A DNA stretch of 64,000 bases, taken from Ruegeria halocynthiae (GTDB lineage: Bacteria > Pseudomonadota > Alphaproteobacteria > Rhodobacterales > Rhodobacteraceae). The position numbers were made by a program, and so were the translations under genes. This document shows positions 9,154 to 14,598 of the stretch, one piece after another. The notes under the pieces are model-generated. The model did no database searches and was not told the origin of the DNA. It was given only the letters and a program-made list of their open reading frames with translations. Within the stretch, counting starts at the first letter, position 1. Each line of letters begins with the position of its first letter. Location of the stretch: contig NZ_JQEZ01000001.1 in the NCBI RefSeq assembly GCF_000743705.1, positions 240,070 through 304,069 of the forward strand, in the 5' to 3' direction.

Positions 9154-9181
9154 AACCGGCCAGTGTTCAGACTGGCCGGTT
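9154..9181 (-). terminator. Rho-independent terminator after acuI
   Basis: A perfect 10-bp inverted repeat (AACCGGCCAG / CTGGCCGGTT) with an 8-base loop. On the minus strand it is followed by TTGTTTGTT. It lies 18 bases past the acuI stop and separates the DMSP genes from frr. Confidence 0.85.
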
Positions 9182-9199: not shown

Positions 9200-10195
9200 T
9201 CAGGCGTTTACATCAATGACCACACGGCCCTTCACCTGCCCGTTTAGGATATCCGCCCCCAATTGCGGCAGCTCGCCAAAGGTCGCGGGATGAACCATGG
9301 CATCCAGTTTTTCCATCGGCAAATCCGTGGCAATGCGCTGCCATGCCCGTAAGCGGTTGTCATAAGGCTGCATCACACTGTCGATGCCCAGCAAGTTAAC
9401 GCCGCGCAACAAGAAGGGAATGACCGTCGCAGGCAACCCTGCCCCACCAGCCAACCCGACAGCGGCGACCGAGGCCCCATATTTCATCTGCCCAAGAACC
9501 CGCGCCAGCATCTCGCCACCGACCGCATCGACACATCCGGCCCAGGTTTCGCTTTCCAGCGGACGCTTGGTTGTCTCATTCAGATCACCCCGAGGCACAA
9601 TTGTCGTGGCACCCAGCGATTTCAGGTAGTCGCCGGCTTCAGGACGCCCCGTCACAGCAGCGACCTCATAGCCGAGATTGGCAAGGATCGCTGTCGCGAC
9701 GGATCCCACACCACCGGCGGCCCCGGTTACCAGAACCGGCCCTTGACCCGGCTTCAGCCCCTGATCTTCAAGCGCCATGACCGCAAGCATGGCCGTAATT
9801 CCAGCCGTACCCACCGCCATCGCCTGCCGGGCATCCAGCCCGTCGGGCAAAGGCACCAGCCAATCGGCCAGCGCATTGGCTTTTTGCGAATAGCCGCCCC
9901 AATGGGCCTCGCCAACGCGCCACCCGGTCAACACAACCTTGTCGCCCGGTTTGTACCGATCATCCGATGACGCCTCGACCGTTCCGGCATAGTCGATACC
10001 GGGAATGTGCGGATAGCTGCGCACCAACCCGCCGCCCTTCGGCGACAAGCACAGACCATCCTTGTAGTTGACCGTCGAGTACTCAACAGCCACGGTGACC
10101 TCTCCGTGTGGCAAGTCATCCGTAGACAGCTGTTTCACCGAAGCGGCCGCCAAACCACTCTCTTCATCCTTCTCCATAACCAAAGCGTTAAACAT
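9200..10195 (-). CDS. acuI: Acrylyl-CoA reductase AcuI (MDR family)
   Basis: NADPH-dependent reduction of acryloyl-CoA to propionyl-CoA, the step that detoxifies acrylate from DMSP. The 331-residue protein is a zinc-free quinone-oxidoreductase type MDR. It has the N-terminal GroES-like part (STVNYKDGLCLSPKGG) and a Rossmann segment VTGAAGGVGSVATAILA. AAAGGA lies before ATG 10195. The position directly after dmdA on the same strand, as in other roseobacters, supports AcuI over a generic YhdH assignment. A 100-base gap with a repeat element separates it from dmdA. Confidence 0.93.
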   Translation of the reverse strand: MFNALVMEKDEESGLAAASVKQLSTDDLPHGEVTVAVEYSTVNYKDGLCLSPKGGGLVRSYPHIPGIDYAGTVEASSDDRYKPGDKVVLTGWRVGEAHWGGYSQKANALADWLVPLPDGLDARQAMAVGTAGITAMLAVMALEDQGLKPGQGPVLVTGAAGGVGSVATAILANLGYEVAAVTGRPEAGDYLKSLGATTIVPRGDLNETTKRPLESETWAGCVDAVGGEMLARVLGQMKYGASVAAVGLAGGAGLPATVIPFLLRGVNLLGIDSVMQPYDNRLRAWQRIATDLPMEKLDAMVHPATFGELPQLGADILNGQVKGRVVIDVNA

Positions 10196-10230
10196 ATTGT
10201 TTTCCTTTCACTTTTGTCGTCAGACCCGAC

Positions 10231-10292
10231 GCTTCATCTGGCTCCAAATATCCCGGGGGAGTCGCGCAGCGACGGGGGCAGCGCCCCCGCCT
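10231..10292. repeat. Intergenic repeat with GC-rich hairpins, copy 1
   Basis: The block GCTTCATCTGG-nn-AAATATCCCGGGGG is followed by a hairpin (GTCGC-gca-GCGAC) and then a GGGGGC-ag-CGCCCCC inverted repeat. The same arrangement in the same orientation recurs at 29481-29549. It sits between dmdA and acuI, so it would be transcribed as the intercistronic spacer and may act as an attenuator or RNA-stability element. Confidence 0.7.
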
Positions 10293-10296
10293 GCCC

Positions 10297-11400
10297 TCAA
10301 ATCCAGAACGAGTCCTGAACGGTCGCATTCCGCATCCCGTCCGGGGTTTCGACTTCTACCTCTGTCCCGGCGTCCCAATGGCTCAACCGCAGCATGCCCA
10401 CGGACACGTTTGTCTGGAAATCCGGAGACCACACAGAGGATGTCACCTGCCCCACACGTCTGCCCCCCGCGAATACCGCCCAGGGCCGATCACAGGGCGG
10501 CACGGCGTCCCCTTTGATCGCAATCGGGCGGATCTGCTGCACCGGACCTTCCTTGGCCACACGCAACAAAGCGTCCCGCCCGATACAACCAATCGCCGTA
10601 TGCGTGTTGCAAAACTTGCCCAGACCACACTCATGCGGGGTGTTATCGTCGGTCATATCGTTGCCATAAGACAGCAACCCGCCTTCGATCCGTTCAATCA
10701 GGTTCGGACACCCCGCCCGGACCTGCAGGTCTTGGCCCGCAGCAAACAGCGCGTTCCACAGCGGCATACCAATCTGTGCGTTCGAGACATAAATCTCATA
10801 CCCGCCCTGCTTGGAATACCCCGACCGGGCGATTGCCAGATCGTGACCTTCAAATTCGAACACACCGAATCGAAAGAACCGAATATCCCGAACACTGTCA
10901 CCAAACACCCGCGCCATCAGATCGTCAGCCTTCGGCCCCTGAACGGCAAGCGGCGACACGTCCGGTTCATCAACCAGAACGTCCAGACGGTATCCGTTTG
11001 CGATGCCTTTGACCCACAGCAACAGATCGCTGTCGGCGATTGAGATCCACCAACGATCATCAGACAGTTTGATGGCGACAGGATCGTTCAGCATTCCGCC
11101 CGTCTCATCCACGATCGGGACATAATAACATTGACCGGGCAGCATGCCCCGCAAGTCCCGAGGCGTCAGCATTTGCATAAGTCGGGCCGCATCGGGCCCG
11201 CGCAGTTCAACCTGCCGTTCGCAGGACACATCCCAAACCTGAACATGGGTTTTCAGATGCCTGTAATCTGCCTCGGCGCTTTCGAAAACTGTCGGCAATA
11301 ACATATGGTTATAAACCGTGTATGCCTTGACACCAGCAGCTTCGACACCTTCGGAAAAAGGTGTTCGGCGCAGGCGTCGAGACGGGGAAATCTGAACCAC
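10297..11400 (-). CDS. dmdA: Dimethylsulfoniopropionate demethylase DmdA
   Basis: Tetrahydrofolate-dependent demethylation of DMSP to methylmercaptopropionate, first step of the DMSP demethylation pathway. The 367-residue protein is of the GcvT/aminomethyltransferase fold. It retains family blocks such as SRRLRRTPFSEGVEAAGVKA, YTVYNHMLLPTVF, QVWDVSCERQVEL, RSGYSKQGGYEIYV and GLLSYGNDMT. The GTG start at 11400 abuts the DinB stop TAA and has AGGAGG 5 bases upstream. Pairing with acuI makes this DmdA rather than a general GcvT. Distinction from GcvT paralogues rests on these blocks. Confidence 0.93.
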   Translation of the reverse strand: MVQISPSRRLRRTPFSEGVEAAGVKAYTVYNHMLLPTVFESAEADYRHLKTHVQVWDVSCERQVELRGPDAARLMQMLTPRDLRGMLPGQCYYVPIVDETGGMLNDPVAIKLSDDRWWISIADSDLLLWVKGIANGYRLDVLVDEPDVSPLAVQGPKADDLMARVFGDSVRDIRFFRFGVFEFEGHDLAIARSGYSKQGGYEIYVSNAQIGMPLWNALFAAGQDLQVRAGCPNLIERIEGGLLSYGNDMTDDNTPHECGLGKFCNTHTAIGCIGRDALLRVAKEGPVQQIRPIAIKGDAVPPCDRPWAVFAGGRRVGQVTSSVWSPDFQTNVSVGMLRLSHWDAGTEVEVETPDGMRNATVQDSFWI

Positions 11401-11907
11401 TTAGACCTCCTCGGGTAAAAAGACCAAATCACTCACCGGGGCGGCAGAACCCGTTTCGGTCAACATCTGATGCAGCTGTCCGCGATGGTGGGTTTGATGG
11501 TTGAAGAAATGCATGACACATTGCGCATAAGGCTTTGTCACATCGGCGTTTTTGGCCGCCGAATACCACGTGAAGGAACCCGTAAGCTGACCATCCGGCA
11601 AGGACGCAGCCCACCCTGAGATTCTGGTGTCGACCGTGTCCCGCAACGCCAGCCATTCTGAAATATCAGCGCACACAGACTTGCTTTCCGGTATGCCACC
11701 ACCCGGCCCCTGACCCTTGTCAAAGCGCGACATCCAGATCCAATCGCCCCACAGCAGGTGATTGGCAGTTCCCAGAATTGATCCGAAAAATGCCCCGCAT
11801 TCGCGGGTCAGTTCATCCTGCGAAAGGGATGAAAGAAAGCCTTTTAACTGACTGTTCTGCCAGTGATTATACCGCGCCATCTCTTGCGTATATGCCGCGG
11901 TGATCAT
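11401..11907 (-). CDS. DinB-family four-helix protein, putative metal/thiol enzyme
   Basis: A 168-residue DinB/YfiT-like four-helix bundle. The three family metal ligands are visible: His in TANHLLWGDWIW and the pair in FFNHQTHHRGQ. Known members include thiol-dependent S-transferases, but the substrate here is unknown. ATG 11907 overlaps the DUF1326 stop (TGATG). The gene's TAA is followed immediately and in the same frame by the dmdA start codon. Placement before dmdA suggests, but does not show, a role in the sulfur or thiol chemistry of DMSP breakdown. Confidence 0.85.
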   Translation of the reverse strand: MITAAYTQEMARYNHWQNSQLKGFLSSLSQDELTRECGAFFGSILGTANHLLWGDWIWMSRFDKGQGPGGGIPESKSVCADISEWLALRDTVDTRISGWAASLPDGQLTGSFTWYSAAKNADVTKPYAQCVMHFFNHQTHHRGQLHQMLTETGSAAPVSDLVFLPEEV

Positions 11908-12611
11908 CACTTTGGTCCATGCCAGTCGATTGGGCAGATTTCAGCAGATTTACCGCCGAAATCCCAAACGCGGCCATAATCACGCACTTTGGATTTGGTC
12001 CCTCGCGCGACGATGATATCCGGCCCCATCCAGTATTTCGAATTCGACACCATCACCGGGTGCTCGGGATCTTTCCCGCCCAGCATTTCGATCTCACCCT
12101 GAATTTTGCGACCAATCGAAATCCGGCGTTTGGTTCCGTCCCGCTCAATCACAACCGGGGCGCGCTCGGCCCCGATGATCTCGCTGACCAGCATCGTGAA
12201 CAGGCCCGTCGTGCCGCCCGCCTGACCACTGAAAATCTGCAACAAGCCGTTGTACGCCTTGCCGCTGGCGCGCTCGTCCACATAGGCGGCAACTTTCCAT
12301 TGTCCTTCGCCCATGCGCCCCGGAATATCGACCAACAAACCAACGTTCAGCCCCGAGAGGTCTTCGCCTTCGTAATGCCCCTCGTCAATGATGATGCCCA
12401 TCCAGGCATGGCAATGACCCTCTGTCGGCGGGTGCGCGCCCAGCGATACAACGCAGGGGCAGAACACATCGCAAGAACAGTTCAGGATCAGTTCGCCCTT
12501 GATGGACCAATCCGTGGGGCTCATCTCGCGCCGCTTGGGGTTGGGCATACGGCTGTCGATGCGCTGACTGATCGGCAACCTGTCGGAATCCGGTTTTCTG
12601 TTTTTAGCCAA
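11907..12611 (-). CDS. DUF1326 domain protein (Cys-rich N-terminus)
   Basis: Cytosolic protein of the DUF1326 family, function unknown. The conserved part starts at WSIKGELILNCSCDVFCPC, whose CxC...CPC cysteines look like a metal site. Hydrophobic and Gly-rich core segments follow (FSGQAGGTTGLFTML). I place the start at TTG 12611 because GGAGG lies 8 bases upstream. In-frame ATGs at 12548 (MPNPKRRE) and 12521 (MSPTDWS) would give shorter forms that keep the whole domain. The DUF2182 stop lies just upstream, so the two genes are coupled, as in many genomes. Confidence 0.82.
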   Translation of the reverse strand: MAKNRKPDSDRLPISQRIDSRMPNPKRREMSPTDWSIKGELILNCSCDVFCPCVVSLGAHPPTEGHCHAWMGIIIDEGHYEGEDLSGLNVGLLVDIPGRMGEGQWKVAAYVDERASGKAYNGLLQIFSGQAGGTTGLFTMLVSEIIGAERAPVVIERDGTKRRISIGRKIQGEIEMLGGKDPEHPVMVSNSKYWMGPDIIVARGTKSKVRDYGRVWDFGGKSAEICPIDWHGPK

Positions 12612-12615
12612 AAGC

Positions 12616-13407
12616 TTATCCTCCGTAAGCAAAGGGATAGATGAGCAGGACAAGACCGCCTGCGATCAGTAGAAACCCCAGTGGCCGTGTAATCACGTGG
12701 CCGACCTGAGGAAGTTTTTCCAACACCATGAACAAGGTCGCCAGCCCCATCCACAAAAGGCTCATGACGCCGCCAACAAAGCCAAGCGCCATGAAGCCCC
12801 AGCAGCACCCGACGCAAAACGCGCCCAACCCAAGACCCATGCGAAACCCTCCCGAGAAGCCGGTTTTCCAATGGGTCAGAAAATAGGACATGGGGGCGTG
12901 GCAGACACCGTGGCAAACCTCTTTGGCGCGGGTGAACTGGAACGCGCCCACCGCGATCATCAACCCACCCGCAAGCACGCCGGATCTGGCGATGCCCAGC
13001 ATATCGACCACTCCGCCAAAGAGCAGAAGCAGTTGAACCCCTGTAATCAACGCAGCAAAACCCACCCACACCGTGAAATAACCGGCCAGAACGCCGATCC
13101 ATCCGGCGCGGGTGCCATTGGCGCTGCGGATCAGATCGTCATAGCTGCGCAGGGTCGGTACCAGCGTTGGCAGCATCATCGCCGCCATCATGATCGCCCA
13201 CATCCAGAACAAAGGCCCGAATTCGGCCATCGGCATATACATGTCCATGCGCGGGTCCATGGTGCGCATGGCCTCGCCCATCGGGCCAGGGCGGCCGATC
13301 CAGTCCAGATCCATGTCGCGGCTCATGGTGAACATCATCCACCACGACCACAGGATCAGGATGTAGAATCCCAGCCACATACCACTGCGAAGAACTGCGC
13401 GACTCAC
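12616..13407 (-). CDS. DUF2182 multi-pass membrane protein, Met/Cys-rich
   Basis: A 263-residue inner membrane protein of the DUF2182 family with about six to seven helices. After helix 1 comes a periplasm-facing Met-rich stretch (MDPRMDMYMPMAEFGP) and a helix with further Met (MWAIMMAAMMLP). Later loops carry CHGVCHAP and FCVGCCWGF. Such Met, Cys and His clusters resemble soft-metal ligands, but no function is established. The GTG start at 13407 has GGGAGG 5 bases upstream. It heads the five-gene run DUF2182-DUF1326-DinB-dmdA-acuI. Confidence 0.87.
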   Translation of the reverse strand: MSRAVLRSGMWLGFYILILWSWWMMFTMSRDMDLDWIGRPGPMGEAMRTMDPRMDMYMPMAEFGPLFWMWAIMMAAMMLPTLVPTLRSYDDLIRSANGTRAGWIGVLAGYFTVWVGFAALITGVQLLLLFGGVVDMLGIARSGVLAGGLMIAVGAFQFTRAKEVCHGVCHAPMSYFLTHWKTGFSGGFRMGLGLGAFCVGCCWGFMALGFVGGVMSLLWMGLATLFMVLEKLPQVGHVITRPLGFLLIAGGLVLLIYPFAYGG

Positions 13408-13437: not shown

Positions 13438-13463
13438 AAATGTCAGACTTTTAAATGTCAGAC
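13438..13463. promoter_or_regulatory. Direct repeat, candidate operator between DUF2182 and gntR
   Basis: AAATGTCAGAC occurs twice, at 13438-13448 and 13453-13463, one and a half helical turns apart in the 86-base divergent spacer. The position suits binding by the adjacent FadR-type regulator and control of both directions, but this is inferred only from layout. Confidence 0.5.
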
Positions 13464-13493
13464 AAATAAAAATTCACCAGCGGTTCCTGAAAA

Positions 13494-14225
13494 ATGAAAA
13501 TAGACCCTCAGAAACCTGCGGATCTGTCAGCGCAGATCGCTCAGGCCATTCGTGACGCTATCGTCTCGGGCGCATTGATCGTCGATGAAAGACTTCCGTC
13601 CGAGGCCGAGTTGTCTGACCAGTTTCAGGTCTCGCGCCCGACTGTGCGCGAAGCGTTGAAACGACTTGCGGCGCAGTCGCTGATCCGGACGCAACGCGGC
13701 GCGACCGGCGGCGCATTTGTCAACCGGCTGAGCTTTGAGGACGCCTATGCGCAGCAAATCACCACCTCGACCCTTTTGCTGTCAATGAATGCGGTGCGTT
13801 TCGATACCGCTTGTGAGGCGCGCTATGCGCTGGAGCGGGCCTGCGCGCCCCTTTCGGCGCAACGCCGGACCGCAGATCAACTGGCCACCATGCGCGCCGA
13901 GATTTTCCGACAGGCGCAGCCCGGCCTCACGGATGAGGCGTTCTGCGCCTCGGATGTGGCCTTTCACCGGGCGCTTGTTGACGGCGCGGGCAATCCGGTG
14001 CTGTCCTATCAACTGGCTGGCGCGGTCGAGGCCATGCAACCGCTGATGAACATGATCACCTTCACGGCCCGGTCGCGCGAGGAAATCATCGCCCTGCACA
14101 GTCAAATCACAGATGCGCTGGAAGGTCGGGATGCGGCCAAAGTAGATTTGACGCTGGTCGAGCTTGAAAACTACACGCGCAAACTGGCGCAGGATGTGGC
14201 CCAACAACGACGCAAACCAGCTTGA
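13494..14225 (+). CDS. FadR-subfamily GntR transcriptional regulator
   Basis: A 243-residue regulator. The N-terminal winged helix is LSAQIAQAIRDAIVSGAL followed by LPSEAELSDQFQVSRPTVRE and ALKRLAAQSLI. The C-terminal all-helical FCD ligand domain shows the metal-binding His in FHRALVDGAGN and later ALHSQI. It is divergent from the dmdA-containing run, so it is the natural candidate regulator of it. The effector is probably a small carboxylate, but the sequence does not say which. A direct repeat lies in the shared promoter region. Confidence 0.93.
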   Translation: MKIDPQKPADLSAQIAQAIRDAIVSGALIVDERLPSEAELSDQFQVSRPTVREALKRLAAQSLIRTQRGATGGAFVNRLSFEDAYAQQITTSTLLLSMNAVRFDTACEARYALERACAPLSAQRRTADQLATMRAEIFRQAQPGLTDEAFCASDVAFHRALVDGAGNPVLSYQLAGAVEAMQPLMNMITFTARSREEIIALHSQITDALEGRDAAKVDLTLVELENYTRKLAQDVAQQRRKPA

Positions 14226-14235
14226 TGAGGGTAAG

Positions 14236-14598
14236 ATGACGACCACATTCAACGCGATAGCCGCAATTCTGACCATCGGTTTTGGTCTGTTCGGGTTTCT
14301 GGCACCGGCTTTCACCGCCGCCTCGCTGGATTTGGCACCAAATGGCAGCAACATGGGGCTGAGTGAAATGCGGGCTTCGGTTGGCGGGGTGTTCGTGGTC
14401 ACCGGTATTGCGGTGTTGTGGCTGAACAATCCTATGGCCTATGCCGTGCTAGGGGTTGTGTACGCCGGTGCCACCCTTGGGCGGATCGTGTCGATCATTC
14501 TGGACAACCCGCCCTTGATCAAAGCGGCGATTTTCGGAGGAATCGAGTTGATCCTTGCGTTGTGGCTGATACTGGCCAACTTCAACAAGACCTCTTAA
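14236..14598 (+). CDS. Small membrane protein, DUF4345-like
   Basis: A 120-residue protein with four predicted membrane helices (FNAIAAILTIGFGLFGFLAP, SVGGVFVVTGIAVLW, AVLGVVYAGATLGRIVSIIL, AAIFGGIELILALWLILA). The short conserved motif MRASVGG fits the DUF4345 family, whose role is unknown. ATG 14236 is preceded by GAGGG. The open frame extends upstream into gntR but lacks support there. It follows gntR by 10 bases and is probably cotranscribed. Confidence 0.8.
   Translation: MTTTFNAIAAILTIGFGLFGFLAPAFTAASLDLAPNGSNMGLSEMRASVGGVFVVTGIAVLWLNNPMAYAVLGVVYAGATLGRIVSIILDNPPLIKAAIFGGIELILALWLILANFNKTS

Follow-up and report, generated by a model that had tools for sequence, protein, structure and literature searches.

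The predicted gene for the dimethylsulfoniopropionate (DMSP) demethylase, dmdA, lies in Ruegeria halocynthiae within a closely packed set of genes headed by a pair, ppoB2 and a DUF1326 gene, that likely handles Cu(I). The window analyzed here is a 64,000-nucleotide (nt) stretch of assembly GCF_000743705.1 (NZ_JQEZ01000001.1, positions 240,070-304,069), and coordinates are positions within it. Five genes, ppoB2, DUF1326, dinB, dmdA, and acuI, follow one another head to tail on the minus strand from 13407 to 9200. The first, ppoB2 (formerly DUF2182; 12616-13407, 263 amino acids [aa]), encodes a predicted multi-helix membrane copper chaperone (PF09948, 200.2 bits, cut-off 28.7). Next come its five-cysteine partner DUF1326 (11907-12611, 234 aa; PF07040, 178.1 bits, cut-off 25) and a DinB-family protein (11401-11910, 169 aa; PF05163, 87.2 bits, cut-off 23). 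The predicted dmdA gene (10297-11400, 367 aa) reaches 695.9 bits against NF009133, where the cut-off is 410, and its product matches PDB 3tfh (E 1.3e-111). The last gene, acuI (9200-10195, 331 aa), for acrylyl-coenzyme A (CoA) reductase, matches TIGR02823 with 440.2 bits (cut-off 297.25) and falls narrowly under the cut-off of the AcuI equivalog NF051456 (419 bits, cut-off 440). Divergent from the unit, on the plus strand, is gntR (13494-14225), which encodes a GntR/FCD-family regulator (PF00392 and PF07729); a candidate tandem GntR-type operator, TTGTCTGACATTTAAAAGTCTGACATTT, lies between gntR and ppoB2 (13438-13465, minus strand). A terminator-like hairpin of 11 pairs, 7 of them G-C, lies 3' of acuI (9154-9181, minus strand).

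How closely are these genes joined? The DUF1326 start codon, a TTG, lies 4 nt past the ppoB2 stop, the dinB start overlaps the DUF1326 stop (AAGTGATG), and the dmdA GTG start immediately follows the dinB TAA, with a 0-nt gap. These junctions bear out the tight unit with dmdA described in an earlier sequence-only reading of the locus. At the dinB-dmdA junction, where a promoter and terminator would set dmdA apart, a consensus scan gave no promoter- or terminator-like match. The same scan gave one weak same-strand promoter-like match within DUF1326 (12041-12013) and one weak same-strand terminator-like match of 5 pairs within dinB (11807-11794). Promoter-like sites in the region number 4, against 2.3 (standard deviation [sd] 1.6) in shuffles, and terminator-like sites 4, against 4.9 (sd 2.4), so that the class to which the acuI hairpin belongs is not above shuffles. 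Because these counts are near shuffle level, neither class is meaningful. Close packing stops at dmdA, which is separated from acuI by 101 nt; this gap (10196-10296) contains a G+C-rich inverted element (GGGGGCGCTGCCCCC).

The arrangement recurs widely. It was followed in the best 80 of 590 DmdA loci from a scan of genome contigs, a set that is skewed to close relatives and carries mostly Roseobacter-group or Rhodobacteraceae names (L020, L024, and L074 are named only as Alphaproteobacteria); gene calls in some loci come from simple purpose-made callers. The ppoB2-DUF1326 pair is present in 73 of the 80 loci, always between gntR and dmdA. The order gntR / ppoB2-DUF1326-dinB-dmdA-acuI is found in 51 loci and the same order minus dinB in 21, while dinB lies 3' of dmdA in one. 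DinB, with 52 loci, is not as regular a member as the pair, with 73. In the 51 loci that keep the order, the distance from the end of dinB to dmdA is -1 to 36 nt, so this packing is more than chance. In the other seven loci gntR directly adjoins dmdA, keeping gntR-dmdA-acuI without the pair. The sequence-only reading had taken the three genes to be inserted between regulator and dmdA; the gntR-dmdA layout is the minority one, and this, together with the loci described below in which the pair adjoins acuI without dmdA, speaks against such an insertion, which we reject.

A more even sample gives the same picture. Among 198 genomes evenly drawn from 197 genera of the family, with cut-offs of >57% identity for DmdA and >50% for DUF1326, there are 77 DmdA matches in 76 genomes, and for 63 of the 77 dmdA genes a same-strand DUF1326 lies at most 3 kb upstream. 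By raw counts that ignore kinship, DUF1326 is found in 66 of the 76 dmdA-positive genomes and in 29 of the 122 others. The two genes are non-adjacent in three of those 66 genomes, being 54 kb apart in G128 and on separate contigs in G001 and G158. Thus, the neighborhood singled out in the earlier reading does recur in related genomes. In five genomes (G008, G032, G125, G140, and G185), DUF1326 and dmdA are 1646-1662 nt apart. Searches of one open-access library found no paper linking PpoB2-DUF1326 to dmdA and none on DUF2182, DUF1326, or both together, and a search there for dmdA with DinB gave nothing relevant. For the regulator name DmdR1, none of the titles listed there concerned Roseobacters.

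The genes also share an upstream signal. A strict operator half-site occurs in 70 of the 80 gntR-side intergenic regions; of 7559 130-nt stretches taken at random from these loci, 2 contain it. All 7 loci with dmdA first have the half-site, as do 63 of the 73 with the pair; judged by eye, the 10 remaining pair loci have apparently degenerate copies. A GntR-type operator therefore precedes the first gene in both layouts, whether that gene is ppoB2 or dmdA. The site is far less regular away from dmdA, with a strict copy within 400 nt upstream of ppoB2 in 5 of 30 loci that have no neighboring dmdA. A conserved unit with a common upstream operator at dmdA loci is thus well supported. Judging by position, the three genes ahead of dmdA would be co-induced with it, with GntR acting at the tandem operator. 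Beside the regulator, a DUF4345 gene (14224-14598, start set at 14224; a weak NF051484 match, 56.1 bits, cut-off 120) overlaps the end of gntR by 2 nt.

PpoB2 and DUF1326 also travel together elsewhere. In a phylum sample of 249 genomes, PpoB2 is the neighbor of 38 of 42 DUF1326 matches; conversely, of 42 PpoB2 matches above the cut-off, 38 have DUF1326 next to them. There are two gene orders. Type I, DUF1326-PpoB2, has varied neighbors in the dozen loci opened. Type II, PpoB2-DUF1326, is the order of the acuI/dmdA locus and is also found with oxidoreductase and ATP-binding cassette transporter genes (one other genus code, g216) and with an acyl-CoA ligase gene (G205). The types are separated by one change in each of the PpoB2 and DUF1326 trees, which are quick trees with long-branch warnings, and the two trees contain similar subgroups. 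The R. halocynthiae genome has a second pair in type I order (C1:900073-901494) and a lone DUF1326 gene (C3:707291-707830). The locus of R. lacuscaerulensis ITI-1157 (L017) has a PpoB2 of 41% and a DUF1326 of 66% identity, yet its gntR is at 91% and its dmdA at 90%; by sequence, this reads as a pair that was replaced in place.

What kind of chemistry do the conserved residues suggest? PpoB2 residues M69, M73, M77, M78, C165, C169, C198, C201, C202, M206, M220, and M227 are invariant in 34 sequences. When 11 rows of type I are compared with 25 of type II, M69, M73, M78, C165, C169, C198, C201, C202, M206, and M215 are kept at a level of at least 91% in both types, and the Met/Cys clusters are thus common to distant members as well. 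In DUF1326, C45, C47, C51, C53, and C67 are invariant in 37 sequences. Of 12 type I rows, 11 also have the five cysteines; the exception, L231, is a fragment that is misaligned. DinB residues H51, H138, and H142, a putative metal triad, are conserved at a level of at least 97% in 73 sequences. For the PpoB2 model (predicted local distance difference test [pLDDT] 79.6), the fold search gave nothing convincing (best Z 5.9), and single-sequence PDB searches with DUF1326, DinB, and PpoB2 gave no match. The conserved cysteines and methionines of PpoB2 and DUF1326 would suit Cu(I). A Marinomonas PpoB2 is described as moving copper to a tyrosinase, with a genetic tie to copper (PMC2855505). Family and residues together make Cu(I) handling by the pair likely. 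Of the accessory metal or thiol handling that the sequence-only reading had suggested, a metal role is plausible, since PF09948 now denotes the PpoB2 copper chaperone and the cysteines and methionines are conserved.

These observations can be joined into a proposal that we hold tentatively and place somewhat short of an even chance: the locus is a DMSP/acrylate operon under GntR control, and the two genes at its head encode Cu(I)-handling proteins. The divergent GntR regulator would bind the tandem operator seen upstream of ppoB2, and acrylate or a related DMSP catabolite would lift repression, giving a single ppoB2-DUF1326-dinB-dmdA-acuI transcript. Because published induction covers R. pomeroyi dmdA-acuI only, we infer this step for R. 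halocynthiae. PpoB2, with its membrane location and Met/Cys clusters, and the five-Cys DUF1326 could then exchange Cu(I), which might keep copper available to cuproenzymes during production of methanethiol, other copper-binding thiols, or reactive acrylate. An SBP56-type methanethiol oxidase encoded behind gntR is a possible client where it is present; elsewhere, including in R. halocynthiae, the client is perhaps respiratory. DinB may assist as an enzyme that depends on a metal or a thiol. A bolder form of the proposal, which we consider doubtful, sees in PpoB2 and DUF1326 a two-part copper relay of a new kind, reserved for Cu(I) supply within the Roseobacter DMSP regulon. DUF1326 would be a metallochaperone with five cysteines, built on a scaffold like that of acetoacetate decarboxylase, and the relay, induced along with DMSP catabolism, would serve methanethiol oxidase where there is one and a respiratory oxidase elsewhere during the production of copper-binding thiols.

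Several observations weigh against a copper function tied to DMSP. First, the copper evidence for the PpoB2 family comes from one distant member only. Second, the pair is often found with acuI and not dmdA. There are 30 loci with DUF1326 and no adjoining dmdA above 57% identity, representing 27 of the 29 dmdA-negative genomes plus G001, G128, and G158 (G059, with an adjacent DmdA of 55%, and G180, at a contig end, are left out). Read from the opened loci, 20 of the 30 have a same-strand acuI no more than 1.3 kb downstream; between the pair and acuI there is dinB in 10, a DmdA-like gene in 1 (L149), and nothing recognized in 9. Among the 10 loci without a close acuI, two break off less than 500 nt from the end of a contig, and in two others acuI lies beyond gntR, divergently oriented. 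Given these 20 loci, dmdA looks like an optional member of the locus. The converse is seen in G056 (L270), where an acyl-CoA ligase gene stands between the pair and dmdA and acuI is on another contig. The pair is therefore tied separately to each of the two genes, dmdA and acuI. Third, R. pomeroyi dmdA-acuI fusions are reported to be induced ~10- to 14-fold by DMSP and acrylate and to be unresponsive to methylmercaptopropionate (PMC3338564), a pattern that favors the acrylate arm of DMSP breakdown over methanethiol. Fourth, the DUF1326 model (pLDDT 75.0, predicted template modeling score 0.77) resembles the acetoacetate decarboxylase fold (Z 11.0, root-mean-square deviation 3.3, 157 aligned to 4zbo_B; Foldseek match 4jmd_B, E 5.9e-05).

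The last three points are what would be expected if the pair served the acrylate/acryloyl-CoA arm with AcuI. In that case DUF1326 would be an enzyme whose substrate is a small acid or a CoA ester, PpoB2 would be the membrane protein working with it, and copper would be incidental; acyl-CoA ligase genes adjoining the pair in L219 and L270 also fit. This explanation is unlikely in our estimate. Acetoacetate decarboxylase works through a catalytic Schiff-base lysine. A filter for charged residues and for Cys, His, and Met conserved across both DUF1326 types retains the five cysteines, D112, and R162 and no lysine. Pfam searches with DUF1326 gave no sequence match to acetoacetate decarboxylase; at a threshold of E 0.001, only PF07040 was found. 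The genetic tie of Marinomonas PpoB2 to copper (PMC2855505) and the varied surroundings of type I pairs also speak against this explanation.

Several of these loci have further features of their own. The DmdA-like gene found between DUF1326 and acuI in L149 (L149:6852-7938) has ~42% identity and was matched in two pieces, and in L270 the place between DUF1326 and dmdA is taken by the ligase gene (L270:8688-10283, PRK08162 subfamily). L267:8034-11502 contains gntR and then, divergently, acyl-CoA dehydrogenase, dinB, and acuI genes, without the pair or dmdA. A BCCT-family transporter gene lies 3' of acuI at L163:10086-11741 (plus strand; one member tested), and its protein cluster spans seven loci and, by clustering, is found near the pair in other dmdA-less loci.

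Fifth, the pair is rare at dmdA outside the family. There, 19 dmdA loci from 18 genomes exceed the NF009133 cut-off, and the pair is next to dmdA in one of them (L313); L314 shows just ~0.76 kb upstream. A requirement of dmdA in general for the pair is thus unsupported. This scarcity, like the seven loci that retain gntR-dmdA-acuI without the pair, could mean that the genes are passengers held by operon inheritance with no DMSP-linked role. We regard that as improbable. When pairs are classed as A or B by a 60% identity cut of PpoB2 to that of R. halocynthiae, the pair state, which can be A, B, or none, changes six times on a quick flank tree of 81 rows, and L017 has a different pair in the same place; the separate associations with dmdA and with acuI also argue against passengers.

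Sixth, a possible copper client is absent from many of the genomes. SBP56 genes occur in 67 of the 198 family genomes; a genome scan found no SBP56 gene in R. halocynthiae, and one is missing in 28 of the 66 genomes with dmdA and DUF1326. Across the sample, 50 genomes have both DUF1326 and SBP56, 45 DUF1326 only, 14 SBP56 only, and 89 neither (p 3.7e-9, kinship ignored; these counts omit three genomes whose SBP56 genes are distant). The association holds among dmdA-negative genomes (12/17/10/83, p 0.0005, kinship ignored) and is not significant among dmdA-positive ones (38/28/4/6, p 0.33). By eye, G043 alone of the 50 genomes with both has DUF1326 and SBP56 within 10 kb of each other. Since R. 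halocynthiae has no SBP56 gene, methanethiol oxidase cannot be the only client; as sole client in general it is ruled out by that genome and the many others without one.

Might the pair nonetheless chiefly load copper into an SBP56-type methanethiol oxidase of the locus, as proposed for SCO1/SenC with mtoX? A methanethiol-oxidase-like SBP56 gene lies directly behind gntR in 19 of the 80 loci, which the flank tree places in two larger clades, and in the same-genus genome G043, and mtoX is reported with SCO1/SenC and MauG elsewhere (PMC5739008). The neighbor protein of L262 matches PF05694, the SBP56 domain, at 578.2 bits, and 20 of 21 proteins have all three of the motifs GWNACS, HT[VI]HC, and GGDC[ST] described for cluster 1 (PMC10936201). 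Against this, 61 of the 80 loci have no such gene nearby, three proteins tested against the MtoX equivalog NF052453 reach 103.7 to 108.8 bits of a cut-off of 650, and no report of copper in this oxidase type was found in the literature examined. Together with the absence from R. halocynthiae and the single close arrangement in G043, this makes the explanation quite unlikely, and a Cu(I)-handling pair induced by DMSP or acrylate remains our preferred reading.

The oxidase-like genes have some features in their own right. In L017, cysteines 83, 147, and 463 become 76, 140, and 456 when counted from M8. A methanethiol oxidase of R. lacuscaerulensis, RlMTO (C76/C140/C456), is reported to consume methanethiol (PMC10936201). 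The fit in spacing and numbering leads us to infer that RlMTO is encoded in the R. lacuscaerulensis dmdA locus. For this strain, mtoX has been called absent with two relatives noted, and the methanethiol-to-sulfide step has been described as a puzzle (PMC7157515). The frame at L015:3646-5073 has an internal stop and lacks one Cys motif, and may be broken or misread. G066 has an SBP56 gene after dmdA and no pair there, and G003 has one 1.8 kb behind gntR with neither pair nor dmdA. A protein of ~220 aa with a start like YHGLNPGMGWPLAV is encoded directly 3' of the oxidase-like gene in the loci inspected (L018:2968-3633, minus strand; L187:10615-11271, plus strand; also L036, L013, L020, L050, and L267), and the two tested gave no Pfam or NCBIfam match. 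Six genomes (G006, G032, G036, G113, G123, and G161) have a DmdA-like paralogue of ~39-40% identity within ~4 kb of the SBP56 gene.

What would follow if the pair does supply copper? DMSP demethylation is a major flux of sulfur in the sea, and dmdA is widely used as its marker gene. Copper supply may then affect the routing of DMSP sulfur and carbon in many Roseobacters, a link that the usual model strain would miss. The linkage also gives DUF1326 a testable role as the copper partner of PpoB2, and it probably places a methanethiol oxidase of R. lacuscaerulensis at a dmdA locus, which touches the methanethiol-to-sulfide puzzle in that strain.

Three known systems resemble the R. halocynthiae unit in part. 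In the mtoX-SCO1/SenC-mauG cluster, a copper chaperone is likewise encoded near a methanethiol oxidase (PMC5739008), but the chaperone belongs to another family and the oxidase to another subgroup, and an oxidase is found at only part of the dmdA loci. In the PpoB1-PpoB2 operon of Marinomonas mediterranea, a PpoB2-family membrane protein (COG5486) is encoded with metabolic genes (PMC2855505); the client there is a tyrosinase and DUF1326 is unnamed in the passages available, whereas the R. halocynthiae operon contains no known cuproenzyme. The third system is the dmdA-acuI operon of R. pomeroyi DSS-3, which encodes the same two enzymes with dmdA directly upstream of acuI, an arrangement reported for 24 of 26 Roseobacter strains with dmdA (PMC3338564). 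The promoter of that operon was placed on a 350-bp fragment reaching into dmdA, and the passages and text search of the same source gave no mention of the three extra genes. R. halocynthiae differs in having those three genes between operator and dmdA. R. pomeroyi apparently lacks the pair at dmdA, which would explain why such a copper relay was overlooked.

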